DNA of 64,000 nt from Arthrobacter sp. MYb227 (lineage in GTDB: Bacteria; Actinomycetota; Actinomycetes; Actinomycetales; Micrococcaceae). The position numbers were made by a program, and so were the translations under genes. The stretch lies in assembly GCF_002975435.1 (NCBI RefSeq), contig NZ_PCPT01000001.1:558001-622000 (forward strand), in the 5' to 3' direction. This document shows positions 7,754 to 57,347 of the stretch, in pieces; within the stretch, counting starts at the first letter, position 1, and each line of letters begins with the position of its first letter. The notes below the pieces were generated by a model that did no database searches, was not told the origin of the DNA, and was given only the letters and a program-made list of their open reading frames with translations.

Positions 7754-8935
7754 CTATTCGGAGAAGGCCAGGTAGCGCATCACGTAATCGTGCTTATTGA
7801 AGCTCTGCAAAGTAAAGTCCCGGTCAACAGTGAATTCCTGTGCATAGTCGATGGGGCGTCCGGTGTCCGGATTGAACATCAGCATGGTTTGGTTGGTTCC
7901 ACTATCGGTGGGGGTCTTCACCCCAAAAACCATGGTCTTCCGCTCCCATCTGTCCGTAGCGGTTCCCAAATACTCAACGTTTTCGACCATCAGCAGTGTT
8001 TGAAGCAGCGCTTTGCTTTGAGCTTGGCTCAGTTTCCAGTCGGTTAGCATGAACCCCACGCTTTGTATGAAGCCTTCGGAGCCGTCACCCACTGCCGCGT
8101 TGTTGGACTTCTGAAATTTCTGGATCTGCTTGAAAAGCTGGCTAGGGTCCTTGGACGGCTCCTTCTTGAACCATAGCTGCATCTCACCGGCCTTGAATTT
8201 CAGTGTCTCTACGCTGCCGGGTATTTGGTTTCCTACCGCTGGAACGAACTTCACGTCCTCACCTGTCGTTGAGTAGGGGTCACCCACCGTGATGGTGGTG
8301 TTTCCGCTCAGATCTTTCTCGCGTAGGGTTTCCGAGACCGTGGGAATGGACACTCGTTCGTCGCTTGTGCCTTGGATCATGGTGATGGGCTCGGAACCAT
8401 CCTCAGGGTAGAAAGGTTCCGAGGTTTGCTCTTTGTCGGGGATGAACAAGGAGTTTTCTTCCCAATGCTCAACTTTGAGGTGGCCAGGGTTGAAATTGGC
8501 AGGGTCTGGATGCTGCTCGGCAGCTTCAAGCAGCGCCGCAATGGCTTCTTCGGTGCTCATGGTCGCGGGTTTGATGTTGGTCAGGGCCAGCGGTGAAGCA
8601 ACGGCCTTGCCTGCCCCGTTCAATGAGGATCCCAATGGTCCTGCCACCAAAATGCCCGCCGCAACCGCAGCAACGGCACCGAGTACCCAGCGGCGGGTAT
8701 GCGTGGACTTACGAGAACGTCCCTGGAGCTGCACCACGTTGGTTGTTTCCGGAAGCGGATTGCCAGAAGCAGGTTCTGTTTCGGGGACCGTGGAGGAGTA
8801 ATTGTCTCCGAGGATAGCGGCGAGGTCTCTTAGTGCACGTTCGTCTAGCTCCGGAGTCTTATCGTTAGGGAAAGGATTGGCCTTGCGTAGGCTGCTCTCC
8901 AGCATGTTTTCATCGTCGAGAATGTTCCTAGACAT
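7754..8935 (-). CDS. Single-pass membrane protein linked to ECF sigma factor (CU044_5270-like)
   Basis: 393-residue protein with an acidic cytoplasmic N-terminus of about 80 residues, one membrane helix (WVLGAVAAVAAGILVAGPLG), and a large external domain rich in the VSIPTVSETLREKDLSG and FKAGEMQLWFKKEPS type segments. Its start overlaps the sigma-factor gene by 8 bases, with GGAGG five bases before the ATG, so the two are translationally coupled. The order sigma factor then one-pass membrane protein is that of ECF sigma/anti-sigma pairs, and actinobacterial proteins of this shape are annotated as the CU044_5270 family. No ZAS zinc motif is seen, so an anti-sigma role is inference from position. 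Confidence 0.7.
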   Translation of the reverse strand: MSRNILDDENMLESSLRKANPFPNDKTPELDERALRDLAAILGDNYSSTVPETEPASGNPLPETTNVVQLQGRSRKSTHTRRWVLGAVAAVAAGILVAGPLGSSLNGAGKAVASPLALTNIKPATMSTEEAIAALLEAAEQHPDPANFNPGHLKVEHWEENSLFIPDKEQTSEPFYPEDGSEPITMIQGTSDERVSIPTVSETLREKDLSGNTTITVGDPYSTTGEDVKFVPAVGNQIPGSVETLKFKAGEMQLWFKKEPSKDPSQLFKQIQKFQKSNNAAVGDGSEGFIQSVGFMLTDWKLSQAQSKALLQTLLMVENVEYLGTATDRWERKTMVFGVKTPTDSGTNQTMLMFNPDTGRPIDYAQEFTVDRDFTLQSFNKHDYVMRYLAFSE

Positions 8936-9455
8936 GGTGTCCTCCGTTTCGCAGAATGTGCTTCAATGACTTCCGTGCTCTGCTGACCCGCGCCCAGGCT
9001 GCTTCTTGAGAGCAGCCTAGGAGTTTGGCGAGCTGCTGGGCCGAGAGCTCTTCCCAGTAGGTCAGGTAGAGGATCTCTCGTTCGGCTTCACGCATTGAAA
9101 GCATGGCTTCACGCAACTGCACCGAGTGTTCGTCCCCTGCGCTGCGGTCGGGGCAGTGCCGGAGTTTGACCTCAAGTGCTGCTACACGTAATTGGCGTCG
9201 GTATTCGTTACCGATGAGGTTCTTGCAGGTCTGGTACAGGTAGGCCAGTCCTGCTGGTTCTGCCTCTGCGAATTTACCCCAGGCCACGCGGAAGGTTTCG
9301 CTTGCCAGATCACGTGCCGTTTCGTGGCTGCTAATACGCCGCTCGGCATACCGGAGAACCATCCAATAGTGCTGTTTATAGAACGTGCTGAAGCGCTCCT
9401 CAACAGTTTGTGGGGGTCTGACGGTATCCTCCAGCAGTTTGAGTTCGGGCTGCAT
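8928..9455 (-). CDS. ECF-type RNA polymerase sigma factor
   Basis: 175 residues with sigma-70 region 2 (FSTFYKQHYWMVLRYAERRI then ARDLASETFRVAWGKF, near residues 23-62) and region 4 (LYLTYWEELSAQQLAKLLGC followed by AWARVSRARKSLKHIL, near 130-165), and no regions 1 or 3, as in extracytoplasmic-function sigma factors. GAGGGAGG lies three bases before the ATG. It is followed, with an 8-base overlap, by the membrane-protein gene that may hold it inactive. The stimulus and target genes cannot be read from the sequence. Confidence 0.88.
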   Translation of the reverse strand: MQPELKLLEDTVRPPQTVEERFSTFYKQHYWMVLRYAERRISSHETARDLASETFRVAWGKFAEAEPAGLAYLYQTCKNLIGNEYRRQLRVAALEVKLRHCPDRSAGDEHSVQLREAMLSMREAEREILYLTYWEELSAQQLAKLLGCSQEAAWARVSRARKSLKHILRNGGHHV

Positions 9456-9712
9456 GGGCCTCCCTCTAAAGGTATGTTGGTTTGTGGTTCACACTATCTA
9501 TTTCCGATATGCGCCAGTTCCTGACATATTTGGCCAAAATTAATGCGTTCGTTTATCACGTGGCTCCAGTGACGTGATCATTGTGCTGGCTCGGGTGGGG
9601 GGTCCAAGAAGAAGTCGTGACCAAAGATTTACCGATGACCGGCCTAACGTGAGAAGGTTGGCGTTGAGCTTTTCTGCCCGCAGTTTTCGTTAAACGAAGG
9701 TACATTGCGTTT

Positions 9713-10306
9713 GTGCCGTATGCGGGGCCCGCTCAAAATCTTGATGACCCGCAGATAACCCACCATGCGAAAGCTGCAATGCGACTTTTCACCACAGTTC
9801 GAAACATGTTCCTGATGTTATGGCGAGAGGCCGCCAAGTTTGGTGTTGTTGGTGGGCTTGGTTGGTTCATCGATAACGGCATCTACGCGCTTTTATGGCA
9901 CGGCCCAATGTCCGAAAGCACCATTAAGGCAAGAATCGTTTCAACGGGCATAGCAACGCTCTTCTCATGGTTTGCCAACCGGTATTGGACTTTCAGGCAC
10001 CGACGCTCTGACCGCCCTTGGAAGGAATTCCTACTCTTCTTAGCGATGAACGGCGTCGGGCTCGGAATCGTTGTTCTTTGCCAATTCACGTCCCGCTATG
10101 TTCTTGGCTTCACTTCGTTTAGTGCGGATTTCATTGCGGGTGGAGTCATTGGTTTGATCCTTGGAACGATTTTCAGATTCTTTGCTTATCGTTTCTTTGT
10201 ATTCAGCCAGGACCCCGTGTCTGTTGAGACAGATACCGATATCGAAGCCCTACATGGTAATCCGGCTGAACGAGATCTTGTCACCGCAAGCTCATCGCAG
10301 AAATAG
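9713..10306 (+). CDS. GtrA family membrane protein
   Basis: 197 residues with four predicted membrane helices and the GtrA hallmarks: FGVVGGLGWFIDNGIYALL in helix 1, the SWFANRYWTFRHRRS stretch after helix 2, a Gly-rich third helix and the RFFAYRFFVF end. GtrA proteins help move lipid-linked sugars or support cell-wall polysaccharide assembly. The GTG start at 9713 has no Shine-Dalgarno but lies six bases after TACATT, a fair -10 box, suggesting a leaderless message; an ATG at 9779 is the alternative. A 13-bp palindrome (9686-9698, TTCGTTAAACGAA) lies just upstream and could be an operator. Confidence 0.83.
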   Translation: MPYAGPAQNLDDPQITHHAKAAMRLFTTVRNMFLMLWREAAKFGVVGGLGWFIDNGIYALLWHGPMSESTIKARIVSTGIATLFSWFANRYWTFRHRRSDRPWKEFLLFLAMNGVGLGIVVLCQFTSRYVLGFTSFSADFIAGGVIGLILGTIFRFFAYRFFVFSQDPVSVETDTDIEALHGNPAERDLVTASSSQK

Positions 10307-10352
10307 GAATAAACTCCTGAGACTGTCTTGCTGCTGATCAATACCGGAGCGG

Positions 10353-11351
10353 CTAGGAAAGCTTTCGACTCAACACTTGGTAGCTAGCCTTTAGTCGTTC
10401 CAACCACCATTGCCGGCGCTGTGCGCTTACGGCATGCGCTTTGAGCAAGGCCGGATCCGCAGCAATAGTGCGAAGGTTCAAGACTCCATTGACTGCTAGG
10501 TATGGATCGTGAGTGATATCGCTGCTCAGTAATGATCCGGTGGCAAGCCCGCAGGCATACGGTAGTTCTGGCAATGCGGCCGCGAGCGCCGCACCCTGAC
10601 GCAAACCAATCGAGGTGTCCAAGGCCGAAGAGACAACAGCCGGAAGGCCCGCATCGGCAACAATCTGTAGTGCTTTGCGCACACCGCCTAAGGGCTGGGC
10701 CTTGATAATGATCAGGTCGGCGGCTCCGGCCCGTGCAACTGCCAACGGGTCCTCGGATTTACGCACCGATTCATCTGCGGCAATGAGAATTCCAAGATTC
10801 TCGGTTCGAATGAATTCTCGAATCAAAGCCAAATCTTCAATGCTTGCCACGGGCTGTTCGGCATATTGCAAACCGAATCTGGCCAGGGCCCCCATCGCTA
10901 TCTTTGCTTCATCCAAGCTCCACCCTGCGTTAGCGTCAATACGTACGTGGGCTTGTGGGTACAGCCTGCGGACTTCGGTGAGACGGGCAAGATCCTGGCT
11001 TAGGTCTTGCCCTTGTTCGGCTACCTTGACCTTGATTGTATGAATGGAGTCGTAGTTGCTCAGCACCTGAGCAACTCGTTCGACTCCCACGGCAGGCAGC
11101 GTTGCGTTGACAGGAATATGCTCACGTACCGGCTCGGGGAATCCTGCCCATGCAGCTTCTATGGCCGAGGCCAGCCAGGCCGAGGATTCCTCTGCTCCGT
11201 ATTCAATGAACGGGGAGAATTCTCCCCAACCCGTTGGTCCCTCGAATAACAATGCCTCACGATGTTCAACCCCACGGAATTTAACCTTCATGGGGATCGA
11301 GACAATGCGTGCTCGTTGGGTCAAATCGGCAAGGCTGGGCAGTTCAAACAT
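10353..11351 (-). CDS. menC: o-Succinylbenzoate synthase
   Basis: 332-residue enolase-superfamily dehydratase converting SHCHC to o-succinylbenzoate in menaquinone synthesis. Catalytic and metal residues are visible in order: the KVKV pair on strand 2, Asp in RIDANAGW, Glu in YAEQPV, Asp in IAADESV and the second base Lys in LIIIKAQPLGG. Length and the N-terminal capping domain fit the actinobacterial enzyme. AGGGTGG lies upstream of the ATG. It stands alone on the minus strand between gtrA (convergent) and the SRPBCC gene, so the men genes here are dispersed rather than in one operon. Confidence 0.92.
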   Translation of the reverse strand: MFELPSLADLTQRARIVSIPMKVKFRGVEHREALLFEGPTGWGEFSPFIEYGAEESSAWLASAIEAAWAGFPEPVREHIPVNATLPAVGVERVAQVLSNYDSIHTIKVKVAEQGQDLSQDLARLTEVRRLYPQAHVRIDANAGWSLDEAKIAMGALARFGLQYAEQPVASIEDLALIREFIRTENLGILIAADESVRKSEDPLAVARAGAADLIIIKAQPLGGVRKALQIVADAGLPAVVSSALDTSIGLRQGAALAAALPELPYACGLATGSLLSSDITHDPYLAVNGVLNLRTIAADPALLKAHAVSAQRRQWWLERLKASYQVLSRKLS

Positions 11352-11442
11352 GGTTCCACCCTATCGCCCGTTCATTGCGGCTCCGGCCCGGATCTCAAGT
11401 GTTTTGGTTGGTTGGCTGCCAGTTGAGCAGCCAACCAATTTT

Positions 11443-12132
11443 CTAGTTCTGGGCATAGGCTTCGTTGATTGCTTGCTGCCAGAGACTGGTGTTTTCTTGT
11501 GCATCGGCATCTGGAGCAAAATCATGAACTGTAAGACCGACTCGGTGGCCGAAGGCGTTGCGTCCAAAGATTCGGATCATTGAGGAATTCGTGCGTAGCC
11601 CCACAAAATTCTCATTACGGAAATCTACAACAATTTCTGAAAGTCCGCTTCCGGGAAGATTCACGCTGTGACTCTCGCCCTCTTTGGCGTTTTCCAGTCC
11701 CAAAGAGGTGAGGAACATATCTAGTGCATTCGGAGCGGTGGCCGCGTCAGGTCCTTGAATATCGCTGAAGGTTACCGGCCTACCGTTGAAGTGAGCCAGA
11801 TATTGGCCCAGCGTATGTAGGTAAAATGCCGTGTGTTTTGAGGCACCGTCATATTGGTTATCCCAGTCGTCAACGAATATTCCTGAATGAACGTAACGCA
11901 GGATAGTGCCTTGGTGGCCTTCGGTGAGCTGGTGTTCAAGTTGGTTGAACCACCCATCGGGGCCTTCCATCCGGGTCACCAAATGTGTGGGGAACTCTTC
12001 AACCTTGACGAATGCTTTCCAATCTCCGGTGGGGAACATCCATGCTGCGGTATCGTCGGTAACGGCTTTCCAAACCTGTTCCGGGGTTCCCGGGAGATCT
12101 ATGTCCTGGTGGATTTCAAATTCTTTGCTCAT
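11443..12132 (-). CDS. SRPBCC (AHSA1/START-like) domain protein
   Basis: 229 residues starting at the ATG at 12132, which overlaps the TGA of the preceding regulator gene by one base (TGATG). The N-terminal half has the START/Bet v1 pattern, EIHQDIDLPGTPEQVWKAVT followed by GDWKAFVKVEEFPTHLVTRM, and aromatic residues typical of AHSA1-like proteins that bind a hydrophobic ligand in a cavity. The C-terminal half looks like a second, diverged copy. Coupling to an ArsR-type repressor is a common pairing for this family, suggesting response to a small hydrophobic molecule; the ligand is unknown. Confidence 0.8.
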   Translation of the reverse strand: MSKEFEIHQDIDLPGTPEQVWKAVTDDTAAWMFPTGDWKAFVKVEEFPTHLVTRMEGPDGWFNQLEHQLTEGHQGTILRYVHSGIFVDDWDNQYDGASKHTAFYLHTLGQYLAHFNGRPVTFSDIQGPDAATAPNALDMFLTSLGLENAKEGESHSVNLPGSGLSEIVVDFRNENFVGLRTNSSMIRIFGRNAFGHRVGLTVHDFAPDADAQENTSLWQQAINEAYAQN

Positions 12133-12716
12133 CAGAGTTGTTCTTTCAATGTTGGATGCAGGGTCATGACCAGACGGTGGGCGCGGCCATTTTCCGCAGG
12201 CTTGTGGTATTTGTTGGCCAAGGCGCTCACGCTTTGGGTTAGTTCCTTGCTGAATTCGGCGCGGTCTTTGGCGCTGGAAAAAACTATTTCCGTATCCAGC
12301 GCAAAGGTTGCCAGTGGTTTCTTGGCGGCTCTGGCTCCAAGAATCATTTTCCCGACTTCTCGCATGGTTCGTGCGGCTAGGGCCACCATCCATACCGCTG
12401 AGAACTCGTTACGCAATGATCCAGATTGCGGGGAAAGCTCACCCATGGTTTCCGGGGAAATGATGTACGAAGCGGCAGTTGCCTGCATCAAGCGTTCGGT
12501 CATGATGCCTTTTTGCCGTTGTTCTACTACTTGAAGAAGCCCAAGTTCAACGAGTTGGTTCAGGTGGTAGGTAATCTTCTGACGTGGAATCCGCAGTCGC
12601 GTAGCTAGCATGCTTGCCGAAGCGGGCTCACGAAGTTCGGTTAAGAAATTCCGGCGTATCGGGTCTAGTGTGGCGGCCGCCGCTCGTGGGTCTTCAATCA
12701 CTGAGAGGTCTAACAT
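12132..12716 (-). CDS. ArsR-type winged-helix transcriptional regulator
   Basis: 194 residues: an N-terminal winged helix (DPIRRNFLTELREPASASML then ATRLRIPRQKITYHLNQLVE, about residues 18-58) and a helical C-terminal part of unknown ligand specificity. No Cys cluster for metal binding is seen, so this is not a classical arsenic or zinc sensor. The gene is first in a two-gene operon with the SRPBCC protein. A perfect palindrome overlaps its own promoter, which points to autorepression. The ATG at 12716 has no Shine-Dalgarno and coincides with the predicted transcription start. Confidence 0.83.
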   Translation of the reverse strand: MLDLSVIEDPRAAAATLDPIRRNFLTELREPASASMLATRLRIPRQKITYHLNQLVELGLLQVVEQRQKGIMTERLMQATAASYIISPETMGELSPQSGSLRNEFSAVWMVALAARTMREVGKMILGARAAKKPLATFALDTEIVFSSAKDRAEFSKELTQSVSALANKYHKPAENGRAHRLVMTLHPTLKEQL

Positions 12717-12722
12717 GAGTCA

Positions 12723-12751
12723 AGAATTGCACTGACAAATAAATTTGTCAA
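12723..12751 (-). promoter_or_regulatory. Promoter and operator of the ArsR/SRPBCC operon
   Basis: On the minus strand TTGACA (12751-12746), a 17-base spacer and AATTCT (12728-12723) form a promoter whose start would fall at the ArsR ATG. The perfect inverted repeat TGACAAAT-AA-ATTTGTCA (12733-12750) overlaps the -35 box and the spacer, an ideal place for a repressor. Confidence 0.65.
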
Positions 12752-12820
12752 TAGAGTGTTGTGGGCGATTCACACCACAGTCGCCTCCATTTTCTGCACA
12801 GATGTGAAACGCTTGAAAGG

Positions 12821-13750
12821 ATGAGCTACACGCACCAGCCTCGAACAACGCTCCGGGAAATATCCGGTCTGCTTCCTTGGTATGCCTCAATGGCAGCCTT
12901 GGTGACAGCATTCGGGGCTTGCTACTTATTCTTTGTGCACTCGCGAGTTGGCCAATGGATCGATGAAGCCGCACTCCTGGGTGGTCAAGCGTTCCTCGCA
13001 GCGGATACAACTCGCAAGCCCGCCTTAGCATTTCTTGATTACATGCCAGCGGTCTCCGCCGGGATTGCTGCAATCGTCTTATTCCTGGCCTTGATTAGGA
13101 GGAAAGACTTTGCCCGACCAATCATTGCCGGACTCAGTATTCTGGGGGCTGCAGGGACAACTCAGCTGCTCAAACATGTGCTCTTGGAGCGCCCAGATCT
13201 AAATATTTCTGCAGCAACGGGTAACTCGTACCCTTCCGGGCATACAACCTTTGCTGCAGCGGCAATGATGTCACTATTTCTGGTGGCACCAATTGCCCAA
13301 CGTCCTTTCGTGGCATTGATCGGATGGAGCTACGCGGCGATCGCTGGAGCTTCAACATTGGTGTTGGGATGGCACCGCCCCAGCGATGTAGTTGCGGCTT
13401 ACTTGGTGTCGGCGTTTTGGGTGCTACTAGCTGGACTTTTGTTGCGTCACTGGCACGGCCCTACCGATCAAGAACATTCTCTGAAATCCCTCAAATCAGG
13501 TCTCTGCCAACGAATACTCGCGAGCTTTGCGGCCCTTGGTGCCCTAGGAGTAAGTGCCAGCATGATTTTGGTTTTGCTCTTGCCGCACCCAAAGGTCAGC
13601 GGCGTATCCGAAGCCGGGCTTCTAGTTTTTTTGGGCGCCGGGCTTGTCATGATTGTGGGTTCAGCTTTCGTTCTTGGTTTCTTGGTACTCAAACTCTTCA
13701 CTCACTTTGGTTCTGCTATCAGATTCCGGGCTGAACGCGGGATGAAATAA
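12821..13750 (+). CDS. PAP2 family membrane phosphatase
   Basis: 309-residue multi-pass membrane protein with the acid-phosphatase motifs in order: KHVLLERP (KxxxxxxRP), YPSGHTT (PSGH) and GWHRPSDVV (SRxxxxxHxxxD type, here HRPSD). This family removes phosphate from lipid phosphates such as phosphatidate or undecaprenyl diphosphate at the membrane. Eight or so hydrophobic segments are visible; the C-terminal two lie beyond the catalytic core. ATG 12821 is used, but GAAAGG directly abuts it, so an upstream GTG at 12761 cannot be excluded. Its 3' end overlaps the convergent MFS gene by 49 bases. Confidence 0.82.
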   Translation: MSYTHQPRTTLREISGLLPWYASMAALVTAFGACYLFFVHSRVGQWIDEAALLGGQAFLAADTTRKPALAFLDYMPAVSAGIAAIVLFLALIRRKDFARPIIAGLSILGAAGTTQLLKHVLLERPDLNISAATGNSYPSGHTTFAAAAMMSLFLVAPIAQRPFVALIGWSYAAIAGASTLVLGWHRPSDVVAAYLVSAFWVLLAGLLLRHWHGPTDQEHSLKSLKSGLCQRILASFAALGALGVSASMILVLLLPHPKVSGVSEAGLLVFLGAGLVMIVGSAFVLGFLVLKLFTHFGSAIRFRAERGMK

Positions 13751-26445: not shown

Positions 26446-27444
26446 TTAGGCAACCTCAGTCTTTCGAGCCATCTTCGCTGCGTATGCAGCTGCTGCTTCA
26501 CGAACCCAAGCGCCATCGCGGTGGGCTTCACGGCGACGTTCCATGCGCTGTGCGTTCAGTGGTCCGTTACCGAAAATCACTGCTTTGAACTCTTCCCAGT
26601 CAAGATCCATGTGAATCCACTGACCGGTCTCTTCATCAAAGCGAAGTTCCGGATCCGGCAGGGTAAGTCCAAGGACCTTAACCTGCTCCGCGATCATTCC
26701 AACGAAACGCTGGCGTAACTCGTCGTTGGAGAAACGCTTGATCTTCCACTCCATTGACTGCTTGGAGTTTGGTGAGTCGTCATCCGGTGGGCCAAACATC
26801 ATCAGGGATGGTGCGTAGAAACGGTTGATTGCTTCCTGGGCCATCTTCTTCTGAGCTTCGGATCCCTGAGAGAGTTCCAGTAGGATTTCGAATCCCTGGC
26901 GCTGGTGGAAGGACTCTTCCTTACAGACACGCACCATAGCTCGGCCATAGGGGCCGAAGGATGCTCGGCACAGTGGCACTTGGTTGGCGATTGCCGCACC
27001 ATCTACCAGCCAGCCGATCGCACCCATATCTGCCCAGGAACGTGCCGGGTAGTTGAAGATCGAGGAGTACTTGGCTCGACCTGTAAGCAGCTGGTCGTTG
27101 AGCTCGTCACGTCCGGTGCCGAGAGTTTCTGCGGCCGAGTACAGGTACAGGCCGTGGCCTGCTTCGTCCTGAACCTTGGCCATCAAGATGGCCTTACGCT
27201 TTAGCGACGGGGCACGGGTAATCCAGTTAGCTTCTGGTTGCATTCCAATGATCTCGGAGTGCGCGTGCTGGGAAATCTGACGCGTCAAAGTCTTTCGGTA
27301 TGCCTCGGGCATCCAATCGCGTGGTTCGATACGCGAATCTTCGGCAATAATCGCTTCAAAGCGATCCTTGCCGGCCTGCTCCTCAGGAGAAAGTACCGCG
27401 GATAGTTTTCCGCCGCTTTCATTCTGTGCAGCCATAGTGCTCAC
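26446..27444 (-). CDS. paaA: Phenylacetyl-CoA 1,2-epoxidase catalytic subunit
   Basis: 332-residue diiron oxygenase subunit that epoxidises the ring of phenylacetyl-CoA. Iron-ligand helices are visible: [20 protein letters not shown] (ExxH type) and [20 protein letters not shown] (E(E)xxH), together with the [20 protein letters not shown] segment near residue 60. GAGGTGAG precedes the ATG. First gene of paaABCDE, expressed from the PaaR-type promoter just upstream. Confidence 0.95.
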
Positions 27445-27467: not shown

Positions 27468-27512
27468 ACTGACCGTTCGTTCAGGATATGCGGATGGTCA
27501 CCTTTTCGTCAA
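27468..27512 (-). promoter_or_regulatory. paaA promoter with overlapping PaaR-type operator
   Basis: Minus-strand -35 TTGACG (27512-27507), 18-base spacer, -10 TATCCT (27488-27483). The 22-base operator (27468-27489) with the core ACCGTTCGTTC overlaps the -10 box and start site. The same pattern recurs before paaI and paaZ. From memory the Corynebacterium PaaR site has the core ACCGnnCGnnCGGT; I have not verified that here. Confidence 0.72.
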
Positions 27513-27540
27513 TCAATGACACACATAAGACGTGTCATGT

Positions 27541-28011
27541 TTCACTGCAGGTGAGGCAATTTCACTTCACTTGAGGCATTAGGTGCTCTTGTCTCACTAC
27601 GCCCATGGCAGCTGCTCATTCCATTTCGCTACAGCTGAGACAAACACCTCTCCGCTTCTCTACACCCAGGCATTTGGCCAAATCCGGCTCCCGTCAACCG
27701 AGAAAAAACATCATCTGACTTGGGCCGAACGAATCCCAGATCATTCAGTCCGTGTTTCAACTTCAAACGGTCTCAGCAAAACCGACACACCACCGTAAAC
27801 CCGAGGCAAATGCCGATTTACCTCGCGTGTAGTGAAACGGAATTCGGCGTTACGGTCCACGACACCCGAGGCCCCCGCGGAAAACCGGGACCATCTACCT
27901 CACCTGAAATGAAGAAGGACAAGACGTGTTGCCCCTCTTATTCAAGGTAAGGCACTCTCACTACACCCGAAGCCTTAGGCTATTGAGTCTCACTACAGCT
28001 GAGGCATTCTC
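27541..28011. repeat. Degenerate short-repeat array with about 32-bp phasing
   Basis: At least nine copies of a roughly 20-base motif, consensus CACTACAnCyGAGGCATT, lie in the gene-free space between paaA and the deacetylase gene. Forward copies begin at 27543, 27563, 27595, 27627, 27658, a weak one at 27690, 27793, 27858, 27959 and 27991; inverted copies occupy 27816-27838 and about 27894-27914. Successive spacings are 20, 32, 32, 31 and 32 bases, with 32 again between the last two and larger gaps near multiples of 32-34. The best pair (27959 and 27991) shares CTCACTACA and most of the GAGGCaTT half. The copies are too short and variable for CRISPR and do not code. The array starts 29 bases beyond the paaA -35 box. 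Function unknown. Confidence 0.72.
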
Positions 28012-28117
28012 TGGAATTATGCGTAAGGCATTGCGCCATTCGCTTAGGTCGAGATTTGCTAACATTTCGGCCAGTACGGCGCGCTGGCTTAGGAAGCTCA
28101 AAGGTTCACCATGGAAC

Positions 28118-28930
28118 ATGGAGGTCATGACTTCGCGTTTCACGGCCCTTCGTTTGTCCCTCAGCACAGCACTTGTCTTAGTTATCGCCGGATGCGGGAC
28201 ACCCCTGAGTGAAAACTGGTCCGATTACACACCTCCGGCCGCACCGGCCCAAATCATTGCGACCACACCACCGAGTGCCGCGCCGGAGCCTGAAAAGAAG
28301 CTGGAACGTGTAGCCCCCGACTGCAGTATCGAAAAGTGTGTTGCGCTGACCTTCGACGATGGTCCAGGCAGTCATACCCCCGAATTACTAAAAGTTCTTG
28401 CCCAGTATGACGCCAAGGCAACTTTCTTTTTGATTGGAGAGAATGTTGCAAAGCACCCGGATATCGTCAAGGCCGAACTTGATGCCGGGCATGAAATTGG
28501 CAACCACTCATGGGCTCACAAAGACTTGAGCAAGATGTCAGTTACCGCGGCCAAGAAGGACCTTCAGAAATCCGATGACGCGATACAAAAAGCAATTGAG
28601 CAGAAAGCCACCTTGGTTCGTCCACCCTTTGGTGCTTTAGCTCCCTCGCTCAAGAAGTCCCTTGACGTTCCGGTGGCGTTATGGAGTGTGGACACTCTTG
28701 ATTGGAAGACCCGTGACACCAAAAAAACTGAAAAATCTGCAGAAAAAGTCAAGCCTGGTGACATTGTATTAATGCATGATATTCATGAATCAACGGTCAA
28801 GGCCGTACCCGAAATGCTGAAGACGCTCAAGGCTCAGGGGTATCACTTCGTGACGGTTACCGAGATCATCGGAAAACCGAAAGATGGCATCGGATATGGA
28901 ACGGGGCAAAGCCCGGCCACGAAAAAATAA
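28118..28930 (+). CDS. Polysaccharide deacetylase (CE4) lipoprotein
   Basis: 270 residues starting at ATG 28118 (28127 is equally possible, as GGAGG lies between them). A lipoprotein signal (TALRLSLSTALVLVIAGC) is followed by a Pro/Ala linker and the NodB homology domain: TFDDGPGSHTP (motif 1, Asp pair), IGNHSWAHKDL (HxxxH of motif 2), VRPPFGALAP (motif 3), VDTLDWKTR (motif 4) and IVLMHDIHES (motif 5). All metal and catalytic residues of a carbohydrate esterase 4 are present. It probably deacetylates peptidoglycan or another GlcNAc polymer outside the membrane. A longer open frame upstream runs through the repeat array and is not credible as coding. Confidence 0.88.
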   Translation: MEVMTSRFTALRLSLSTALVLVIAGCGTPLSENWSDYTPPAAPAQIIATTPPSAAPEPEKKLERVAPDCSIEKCVALTFDDGPGSHTPELLKVLAQYDAKATFFLIGENVAKHPDIVKAELDAGHEIGNHSWAHKDLSKMSVTAAKKDLQKSDDAIQKAIEQKATLVRPPFGALAPSLKKSLDVPVALWSVDTLDWKTRDTKKTEKSAEKVKPGDIVLMHDIHESTVKAVPEMLKTLKAQGYHFVTVTEIIGKPKDGIGYGTGQSPATKK

Positions 28931-55109: not shown

Positions 55110-57236
55110 TTAGGCCCAGTTAGCGTAAGTGGTGTTTTCCTTTTCAACCAACGTCAACACATCGTAGGTTGCCACAATCTCGCCAGCCTGGTTATTGATG
55201 ACTGCGTCCCAAGCCACTTCGCCGTATTCATCGGTGACACGCGGAGTGATCTTCTTGGCGGTCAGCGTGACACGGATGGAATCTCCTGACGGCACCGGAG
55301 TGATGAAGCGCAGGTTCTCCAGACCGTAGTTGGCAAGCACCGGGCCGGGCGCTGGCTGGACGAACAGTCCTGCAGCCCAGGACACTAACAGGTATCCGTG
55401 GGCAACAATACCCGGGAAAAACGGGTTGGCTTCCGCTGCTGCCTGATCTGTGTGCGCGTAGAAGGTGTCACCTGTTTCATTGGCGAAGGCGGTAATTTCT
55501 TCCAGCGTTACTTCACGCAATGGTGAGGCAAAAGCATCACCAATCTTTAGCTCGGCAAGCGACTTACGGAACGGGTGAATTGCACCTTCCACAGCACCAA
55601 ACTCAGCAGCACCGGCGATCACGCGGTCGGCACCGGTGTGCCAAATACCGGTAACTGCCGTGAGCATATTTGGTGAACCCTGGATTGCTGTGCGTTGCAT
55701 GTGGTGCTTGACCGAGCGGATACCGCCAAGTTCTTCGCCACCACCTGCACGCCCGGGGCCACCGTGTACCAAGTGCGGCACCGGGGAACCGTGCCCCGTG
55801 GATGTACGTGCGGTCTCGCGGTTGAGCATGTGCACGCGGCCGTGGTGCGAGGCGATACCCACGCTGAGCGTCTGGGCGATCTGCGGATCATTGGTACATA
55901 CTGTTGCCACCAGCGAGCCCGAGCCCATTGCGGCCAAGCGAATCGCGTCCTCAAGGTCGGTATACCCAATCACGGAGCTAACCGGGCCGAAGGCTTCACG
56001 GCTGTGAACCGCTTGGTTATTTACATCGTCCCAGGTCAATAAGAGTGGGGACATGAAGGCGCCAGCACTAACAACTGCTTCTTTCCCGTTTGCCGTGCGC
56101 ACCACTGGGGCATCGAGGGTGCCGTAAGCAATCTCGCCGCCAGCTGCAATCATTTCTTCAACAGCTGCACGTACATCACGCAGCTGCTCCAGTGAGGCAA
56201 GCGCACCCATGGTGACGCCTTCGGCACGTGGGTCACCGATGACCACCCGCTGATCGATTCGTTCACCAACGGCCTTCACTACGTCATCCACAAGTGCTGC
56301 CGGGACAATGGTGCGGCGGATTGCTGTACATTTCTGCCCGGCCTTCACAGTCATTTCCGTGACAACAGCCTTGATGAATGCCTCAAATTCCGGGGTGCCG
56401 GTGACGGCATCGGGCCCCAGGATCGCTGCGTTGAGCGAGTCGGTCTCGGCGGTGAAGCGTACTCCACCGTCGATGACATTCTTGTGTGCCTTCAGCGAAG
56501 ATGCCGTGGAAGCCGAACCGGTAAAGGAAAGCATGTCGCGGTAGTCAAGCACATCAAGCAGGGTGCGGGCCGAACCCGAAATCAGTTGGATGGAGCCTTC
56601 TGGCAGGATGCCGGATTCAACCATCAAGCGCACCATGCCCTCGGCTACATAACCGGTGGGAGTTGCTGGCTTGGCAATGGTTGGAACGCCGGCAATGAAA
56701 GCCGGTGCAAACTTTTCAAGCATTCCCCAGACCGGGAAGTTGAACGCGTTGATCTGTGCGGCAACACCGGGGATGCGGGTGTAGATGTGTTCACCGGCGA
56801 AAGAGCCATCGCGGGAGAGAACTTCCATGGGTCCGTCAAGGATGACGTTTGAGTTGGGAAGTTCGCGGCGTCCCTTGGAAGAGAAGGTGAAGAGCACACC
56901 TATGCCACCGTCAATATCCACCATTGAGTCGATCTTGGTGGCGCCGGTGCGGAAGGACATTTCGTAGAGTTCTTCGCGGCGTCCATTAAGGAACTGGGCG
57001 AGTTCTTTAAGCTTTAGGGCACGCTCGTGCAAGGATAGCTTGCCCAGCTCGCGCTGCCCGACGGTGCGTGCGTAGTCAACCATTGCGGCAAGATCTAGGC
57101 CGTTGGAGTCAACGGTTGCTAGGGCCTCTCCGGTGTTTGCATCGAGTACCGCGGTGCCTTCGGCCGGATCGGACGGAGTCCACCAGGCGTTTTGGACAAA
57201 GCTAGGAACAAGTGGAGCCATGGGAGTTGTCGTCAT
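55110..57236 (-). CDS. paaZ: Oxepin-CoA hydrolase / 3-oxo-5,6-dehydrosuberyl-CoA semialdehyde dehydrogenase
   Basis: 708-residue bifunctional enzyme. Residues about 1-520 are an aldehyde dehydrogenase with a FTGSASTASSLKAH coenzyme loop, the Glu in FTAETDSLNAAILGPDA and the catalytic Cys in AGQKCTAIRRTIVP. Residues about 550-690 are an R-specific hydratase (MaoC) domain with GDTFYAHTDQAAAEANPFFPG and the VAHGYLLVSW helix. It opens the oxepin ring and oxidises the aldehyde. ATG 57236 has GGAAGGA upstream and places the operator outside coding sequence. Not linked to the other paa genes but carries the same operator. Confidence 0.94.
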   Translation of the reverse strand: MTTTPMAPLVPSFVQNAWWTPSDPAEGTAVLDANTGEALATVDSNGLDLAAMVDYARTVGQRELGKLSLHERALKLKELAQFLNGRREELYEMSFRTGATKIDSMVDIDGGIGVLFTFSSKGRRELPNSNVILDGPMEVLSRDGSFAGEHIYTRIPGVAAQINAFNFPVWGMLEKFAPAFIAGVPTIAKPATPTGYVAEGMVRLMVESGILPEGSIQLISGSARTLLDVLDYRDMLSFTGSASTASSLKAHKNVIDGGVRFTAETDSLNAAILGPDAVTGTPEFEAFIKAVVTEMTVKAGQKCTAIRRTIVPAALVDDVVKAVGERIDQRVVIGDPRAEGVTMGALASLEQLRDVRAAVEEMIAAGGEIAYGTLDAPVVRTANGKEAVVSAGAFMSPLLLTWDDVNNQAVHSREAFGPVSSVIGYTDLEDAIRLAAMGSGSLVATVCTNDPQIAQTLSVGIASHHGRVHMLNRETARTSTGHGSPVPHLVHGGPGRAGGGEELGGIRSVKHHMQRTAIQGSPNMLTAVTGIWHTGADRVIAGAAEFGAVEGAIHPFRKSLAELKIGDAFASPLREVTLEEITAFANETGDTFYAHTDQAAAEANPFFPGIVAHGYLLVSWAAGLFVQPAPGPVLANYGLENLRFITPVPSGDSIRVTLTAKKITPRVTDEYGEVAWDAVINNQAGEIVATYDVLTLVEKENTTYANWA

Positions 57237-57244
57237 CGACGAAT

Positions 57245-57266
57245 CCTTCCTGAACGATCGGTCAGT
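57245..57266. promoter_or_regulatory. PaaR-type operator between paaZ and the thioesterase gene
   Basis: Contains TGAACGATCGGTCAGT; on the minus strand the core is ACCGATCGTTC preceded by ACTG, identical in 19 of the 20 central positions to the paaA site. It begins nine bases upstream of the paaZ ATG, overlapping the expected transcription start, and lies 82 bases before the divergent gene. Confidence 0.7.
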
Positions 57267-57347
57267 ATTAGCAACCACAGTACAGTATGGTGCAGGACAC
57301 TACGAGTCTCACGTGTCCATATGACTTAGCTTGAGGAGAACTCCACG

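Follow-up and report, generated by a model that had tools for sequence, protein, structure and literature searches.

The 64-kb window analyzed here (the whole stretch of 64,000 nucleotides) comes from a 4.31-Mb draft genome that comprises 27 contigs and carries, on its minus strand, paaA, which encodes a subunit of 1,2-phenylacetyl-CoA epoxidase (positions 26446 to 27444; TIGR02156, 483.4 bits), and, on its plus strand, a polysaccharide deacetylase gene (28127 to 28930, start approximate; PF01522). The repeat stretch that is the subject of this analysis lies between these two genes. The paaA promoter contains an operator-like palindrome, CTGACCGTTCGTTCAG, at positions 27469 to 27484; the only other full match in the genome, at 57250 to 57265 of the window, precedes a minus-strand ORF (55110 to 57278) that we take to be paaZ. 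The presence of the palindrome at both paaA and the putative paaZ suggests a shared regulator. According to excerpts of PMC13186573, the TetR-family repressor PaaR is the dominant local regulator in Actinomycetes, and the palindrome is a candidate PaaR operator.

In the gap between the genes, the first-pass annotation had described a single array of degenerate, roughly 20-bp repeats from 27541 to 28011, with ten forward and two inverted copies, and the array does lie there. Allowing up to three mismatches, the annotated motif has four matches in the window, all inside the array, versus 0.27 expected. We also scanned the window with a weight matrix whose training set consisted solely of congener transposon ends from loci of dif, the chromosome-dimer-resolution site (25 sites from five loci, none of them window sequence; one locus, on contig C38 of genome G004, has no dif on its contig). 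At a threshold of 4, this matrix found 11 sites in 682 bp and 12 in the remaining 63.3 kb of the window; over 300 dinucleotide shuffles, the average was 0.17 sites and the highest count 2. Thus, a matrix built on other loci establishes that the repeats are real. The reported spacings of 20, 32, 32, 31, and 32 bp between copies were correct. The matrix returned nine forward and two inverted sites; among the ten annotated forward copies, those at 27658 (one base short) and 27690 (very degenerate) fell below threshold. These two weak copies keep the register of left-end sites five and six in an intact transposon described below. CRISPR arrays consist of near-identical repeats with unique spacers of similar length; this identity was rejected for the present repeats, which are degenerate, about 19 bp long, in two cases inverted, and mostly 12 to 13 bp apart.

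What had been read as one array consists of two facing transposon ends plus a second left end, and the feature is larger than annotated, reaching from a target repeat at 27528 to about 28016. Its main part, element A (27533 to 27921, plus strand), is 389 bp long, is bounded by TGT...ACA, and has its left end towards paaA, starting 56 bp from the center of the palindrome. It is flanked by an identical 5-bp duplication, AGACG, at 27528 to 27532 and 27922 to 27926. When all TGT...ACA pairs 250 to 600 bp apart in the window were considered, equal 5-bp flanks occurred in 4 of 2440, element A among these. Arrays of ~20-bp sites occupy both ends. The left-end array (27540 to 27706, plus strand) comprises six candidate TnsB sites, starting at about 27540, 27560, 27592, 27624, 27656, and 27688, the last two being degenerate and below the matrix threshold; the right-end array (27819 to 27914, minus strand), delineated by matrix and alignment, comprises sites at 27896 to 27914 (minus), 27855 to 27873 (plus), and 27819 to 27837 (minus). 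The left end scores 70 bits against our left-end model R1 and the right end 96.9 bits against the right-end model R2, element A being a training member of both. Its 389 bp hold no tns genes, and we classified it as a non-autonomous derivative.

Directly behind the right duplication of element A follows element B (27927 to 28016, plus strand), which is the lone left end of another copy, oriented like element A, with sites at 27936, 27956, and 27988. Element B, itself a training member, scores 61 bits against model R1 from model position 4 onward, its outermost bases having diverged. These bases carry a two-base insertion relative to other left ends; element A therefore entered at the end of element B or no more than a few bases from it. 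A search of the window's own genome with model R2 (E < 0.001) revealed no second right end.

Matches of the array stretch by blastn were found in 7 of 59 genomes, counting the window's own, all of one genus, and the left-end model matched 10 of 15 genomes of this genus at E < 1e-7 and 12 of 15 at E up to 0.5 (counts that include the own genome, with 12 of the matches being training sequences). Within the own genome, a single strong relative was detected on contig C21 (75% identity over 135 bp); this copy starts with TGTCCCGTTTTACTACAGGTGAGGCA, and the ORF behind it matches NCBIfam TnsA_like_Actin (221.8 bits versus a cut-off of 110). An intact element was found in the congener G006 (locus L025, positions 8566 to 13645): it is 5080 bp long, is bounded by TGT...ACA and a 5-bp duplication (GTTGT), and encodes TnsA, TnsB, TnsC, and a short TniQ-like protein. 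Support from profile searches varies between these proteins. TnsA is clear by NF033179 (247.6 bits, cut-off 110), with PF08722 at 19.8 bits lying under its cut-off of 26.5; TnsB has a Mu-transpos_C domain (PF09299, 40 bits, cut-off 21.7) and an rve match (PF00665, 25.9 bits) under the cut-off of 32.6; TnsC matches PF05621 (TniB, 66.2 bits) and PF13401 (AAA_22, 61.5 bits); and the TniQ-like protein reaches 22.1 bits with PF06527 (E = 2.7e-4), where the cut-off is 27. On its left, the intact element carries 19-bp sites at six offsets (7, 27, 59, 91, 122, and 154), i.e., with the very spacings of 20, 32, 32, 31, and 32 bp seen in element A, and its right end has sites in the order forward, inverted, forward, which accounts for the inverted copies in the window. 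The idea, raised in the first-pass annotation, of a decayed family of short interspersed repeats was thus near the truth, insofar as the repeats belong to the ends of a mobile element with copies elsewhere, including in the own genome.

Short forms whose interior is homologous to that of element A occur in front of paaA in G010 (73% identity over 388 aligned bp), near a dif-like site in G008 (357 bp long, flanked by the duplication CCCGT; 74% over 210 bp), and on contig C76 of G011 (76% over 168 bp). That such forms stand at two kinds of places suggests mobility of the short form itself, with Tns proteins supplied in trans. In the window's own draft genome, no TnsB match was found at E 1e-30, and only the TnsA ORF is left at dif, with DUF4158 fragments nearby, so that elements A and B are now probably stranded. 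Near this dif locus, a 451-amino-acid ORF on contig C21 (L009, positions 316 to 1671) shows an odd fusion of the end of a DUF4158 domain to a matrixin-like peptidase domain. In G006, the intact element is followed, two bases past its right end, by another left end in which the tnsA start is broken (L025, 13646 to 14332), a tandem insertion at dif that resembles elements A and B in the window.

Each of the 15 genus genomes contains a single full core match to the dif candidate, with a further one-mismatch match in two of them. In all four genomes checked, the candidate lies 47 to 50% of the contig away from dnaA along the shorter arc, as expected of dif. A search of 295 genomes of the bacterial family detected TnsB in 27. 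Among extended TnsB loci at ≥39% identity, a dif-like sequence lies beside the element start in 9 of 11 (two of the loci being in G004), and the two without it are a 4952-bp contig and contig C38 of G004, which starts 143 bp before the element. No dif was found in any of 10 scanned TnsB loci at ≤33% identity, covering 12 to 20 kb each, nor on a 3443-bp contig of G075 (TnsB identity, 38%) that is counted apart from these 10. The extended set covers the TnsB genomes other than G018, G131, G144, G169, G224, and G290 (6 of 27), and G131 and G144 hold TnsB fragments of up to 73 and 67% identity, respectively. Relatives in the bacterial family sit about 35 to 61 bp from chromosomal dif. Measured from the dif center to the TGT of the element, the distance is 57 to 63 bp at seven genus loci (L025, L026, L028, L029, L031, L034, and L100); L098, L099, and L101, which belong to other genera, have 59 to 75 bp, and four loci where the first plausible TGTC was taken have about 48 to 54 bp. 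An exact duplication together with a convincing right end was recovered at 4 of 14 dif-side loci. The gene zapE was considered as the target and rejected: it adjoins dif in G006, G013, and the window's genome but is absent from the fetched stretches around L098, L099, and L101, which are dif loci with close TnsB relatives.

Association with dif has its bounds. Named genomes (Streptomyces, Micromonosporaceae, and others) contributed 18 loci, none of which matched the genus dif at up to eight mismatches. In most of these loci TnsB is 32 to 50% identical, in many 43 to 50%, and one of the 18 is again the G004 contig; identity alone is thus no predictor of dif. The dif of other orders may differ from that of the genus. 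The TnsA-TnsB relatives at loci L080 to L096, found in Streptomyces, Micromonospora, Salinispora, Saccharothrix, and others, are mostly accompanied by TnsC and show no dif match. Outside the genus, 15 left-end-like loci were inspected; dif is immediately upstream of seven and more distant at one, and the remaining seven lack it. The seven other-genus arrays lacking dif (L198, L200, L201, L204, L205, L209, and L210) include several with GGACCA-type repeats, which perhaps represent a subfamily with other targets.

The second place at which these ends recur is the paaA promoter region, which was found in all 15 genus genomes. A left end faces paaA at the same place and in one orientation in six of them (the window's genome, G010, G006, G003, G008, and G013), those in G008 and G013 being decayed and matching weakly (E = 5e-4 and 8e-5); by eye, the other nine have no left end in front of paaA. 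From the palindrome center to the left end, the six copies measure 56, 58, 58, 61, 57, and 57 bp. The G006 insertion is 336 bp long with a duplication of GCGGT/GCCGT (one mismatch), and its flanks, once joined, can be aligned to the unoccupied G004 site, the only gap being one of two bases shortly before the junction; the G003 copy has no clear duplication, and the right terminus of the G010 copy is altered. Across the 15 genomes, 18 left-end matches at E < 1e-7 (12 of them training sequences, and two of them one end in two registers) comprise 9 at dif, 5 at paaA, and single matches at a dif-like site and in tandem with the G006 dif element, 2 bp behind it; the other 2 are on contigs that lack dif, both of which carry a glycosyltransferase-like ORF that neighbors other dif loci. 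Eight of the 23 rows above 1e-7 were checked, with 2 at paaA, 2 at dif, and 4 (L128, L137, L140, and L142) at neither within the fetched locus. The search with the left-end model placed no transposon end at the palindrome copy in front of the putative paaZ. No dif-like site was found in the window at up to eight mismatches or in the paaA loci L119, L124, L127, L130, L134, L138, and L139 at up to seven, and no targeting sequence common to dif and the paaA region was seen by eye.

These observations bear on several explanations of the repeats. The helical phasing and the position just past the paaA −35 region would fit a host nucleoid or regulatory protein that coats the segment, as the first-pass annotation had proposed, and controls paaA from phased operators. 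However, the same array with the same spacing lies in an intact transposon at dif, far from paaA; exact 5-bp duplications adjoin the outer ends of the array; the array is missing before paaA in 9 of 15 genus genomes; and for the G006 copy a relative shows a clean empty site. Since the intact transposon has exactly the same six-site spacing, the 32-bp phasing is a matter of transposon-end architecture and not of a nucleoid coat, an explanation to which we give hardly any credence. A leftover element might instead have been co-opted by the host to regulate or insulate paaA, given that both ends are still recognizable and lie just upstream of the promoter; the degeneracy of several sites and the patchy presence in the genus speak against this, and we regard it as very unlikely. 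The insertion left the paaA promoter whole, and an effect on paaA expression is possible.

A stronger competitor, although still an unlikely one in our judgment, is a single ancestral random insertion upstream of paaA that was inherited and lost several times, in which case paaA would be no target site at all. By eye, G003, G004, and G006 have common flanks, and in the gene tree the well-supported branches force only two changes of the occupied state (the best tree has four), so that some of the paaA copies may share one ancestral insertion. Against a single event for all of them, the duplications differ (AGACG and GCGGT/GCCGT), as do the offsets (56, 58, 58, and 61 bp) and the content, with a tnsA start kept in G006 and the short form present in the window's genome and in G010. 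Moreover, two left ends are stacked at one position at paaA in the window, and the 18 left-end matches concentrate at paaA and dif.

The array consists of a gene-less Tn7-like element, A, together with the solo left end of another, B, both from a Tn7-like family whose intact member encodes TnsA, TnsB, TnsC, and a short TniQ-like protein. We regard as highly probable the account that follows, in which this family targets dif and also a site upstream of paaA. The ~19-bp repeats would then be TnsB-binding sites, as suggested by their counterparts in the family, and a target choice between dif and paaA is likewise implied by where the ends recur. On this model, TnsB bound to the six left-end and three right-end sites would pair the ends, TnsA and TnsB would excise the element, and TnsC, guided by TniQ, would position the insertion relative to a recognized site, with distance and orientation fixed. 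That site would usually be chromosomal dif in the bacterial family, 57 to 63 bp from the dif center in the genus, and the second recognized site would lie upstream of paaA, 56 to 61 bp from the center of the operator-like palindrome. Element A could have moved only with Tns proteins provided in trans. By eye, dif and the paaA palindrome show no evident sequence similarity, and the offset is alike at both. It is tempting to speculate, and we do so with considerable doubt, that the family reads protein-occupied palindromes rather than one sequence—dif when bound by XerCD, and the paaA operator when bound by a TetR-type repressor—inserting about 56 to 63 bp from the palindrome center at both, with gene-less passengers sharing both targets.

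Several known systems resemble this family. An Actinobacteria-dominated clade of Tn7-like transposons with TnsA, TnsB, TnsC, and TniQ has been described, and excerpts of the same study present end-site arrays as a general Tn7-like feature and as candidate TnsB binding sites (PMC8649781). To that extent, the annotated proposal of a multimeric DNA-binding protein on the repeats stands, the candidate protein being the TnsB transposase. Like Tn7-like transposons, the present family has TnsA_like_Actin, TnsB, TnsC, and TniQ-like genes, ~20-bp site arrays at both ends, TGT/ACA termini, a 5-bp duplication, and a fixed distance and orientation to the target; unlike them, the window element is gene-less and its relatives lie at dif. 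The whole word "dif" is absent from the main text of PMC8649781 and of PMC10293859. The IS1202 family (ISAjo2 type) contains "dif site hunters," which in the excerpted account use a lone TnsB-like transposase and insert 5 bp from the XerC side of dif (PMC10132070). The present elements share with these the dif target, the single orientation, a TnsB-like transposase, TGT/ACA ends, and a 5-bp duplication, but the intact element carries tnsABC-tniQ between its ends, its relatives lie 35 to 61 bp from dif, and they stand on the side whose half-site is similar to the XerD consensus given in that paper (excerpts of PMC10132070). Membership in the IS1202 family is ruled out by the TnsABC-TniQ set and by this distance.

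The Tn5053/Tn402 "res site hunters" lack TnsA and have their own resolvase and res site, and they reportedly sense resolvase-bound res sites. Insertion beside a site-specific recombination site and a selector of TniQ type, putative in the present case, are common to them and the present family, which differs in having TnsA and in using dif rather than the res site of a serine resolvase. Membership was rejected, TnsA being present and no resolvase being found among the four genes scanned in the intact element. Miniature inverted-repeat transposable elements (MITEs) and other non-autonomous elements are short and gene-less, with both ends, a target duplication, and homologous copies at different places; all of this applies to element A, which differs from MITEs in that its ends are Tn7-type site arrays and its copies per genome are few.

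Since the IS1202 family targets dif (excerpts of PMC10132070), dif-targeting as such is already known. No report of dif-targeting TnsABC-TniQ elements was found in the literature searched, outside which most subscription papers lie, and dif-targeting by a TnsABC-TniQ family at 35 to 61 bp is thus provisionally new relative to that literature. The reading turns an unexplained phased repeat into a recognizable insertion and points to Tn7-like transposons that would use dif as a harbor, with a second site before a catabolic operon. Confirmation would add dif to the Tn7-type attachment sites, which include glmS, tRNA genes, comM, and others, and the machinery that reaches it would be unlike that of the IS1202 dif hunters. 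The gene-less derivatives would then be passengers, at low copy number, of a transposon with site specificity. The equal offset at two unrelated targets poses the question of whether the sequence or a bound protein is recognized.

Among the weak left ends, two lie at similar distances from a further palindrome, GATAAGCCTGTTATC or GATTAGCCTGTTATC: L128 in G002 (about 1434 to 1501), at 57 bp, and L140 in G011, at 53 bp. L128 is 3.8 kb from dif, and its upstream ORF reads, by eye, like a tyrosine recombinase; the palindrome at these two loci is possibly the site of another recombinase that is used as a target.
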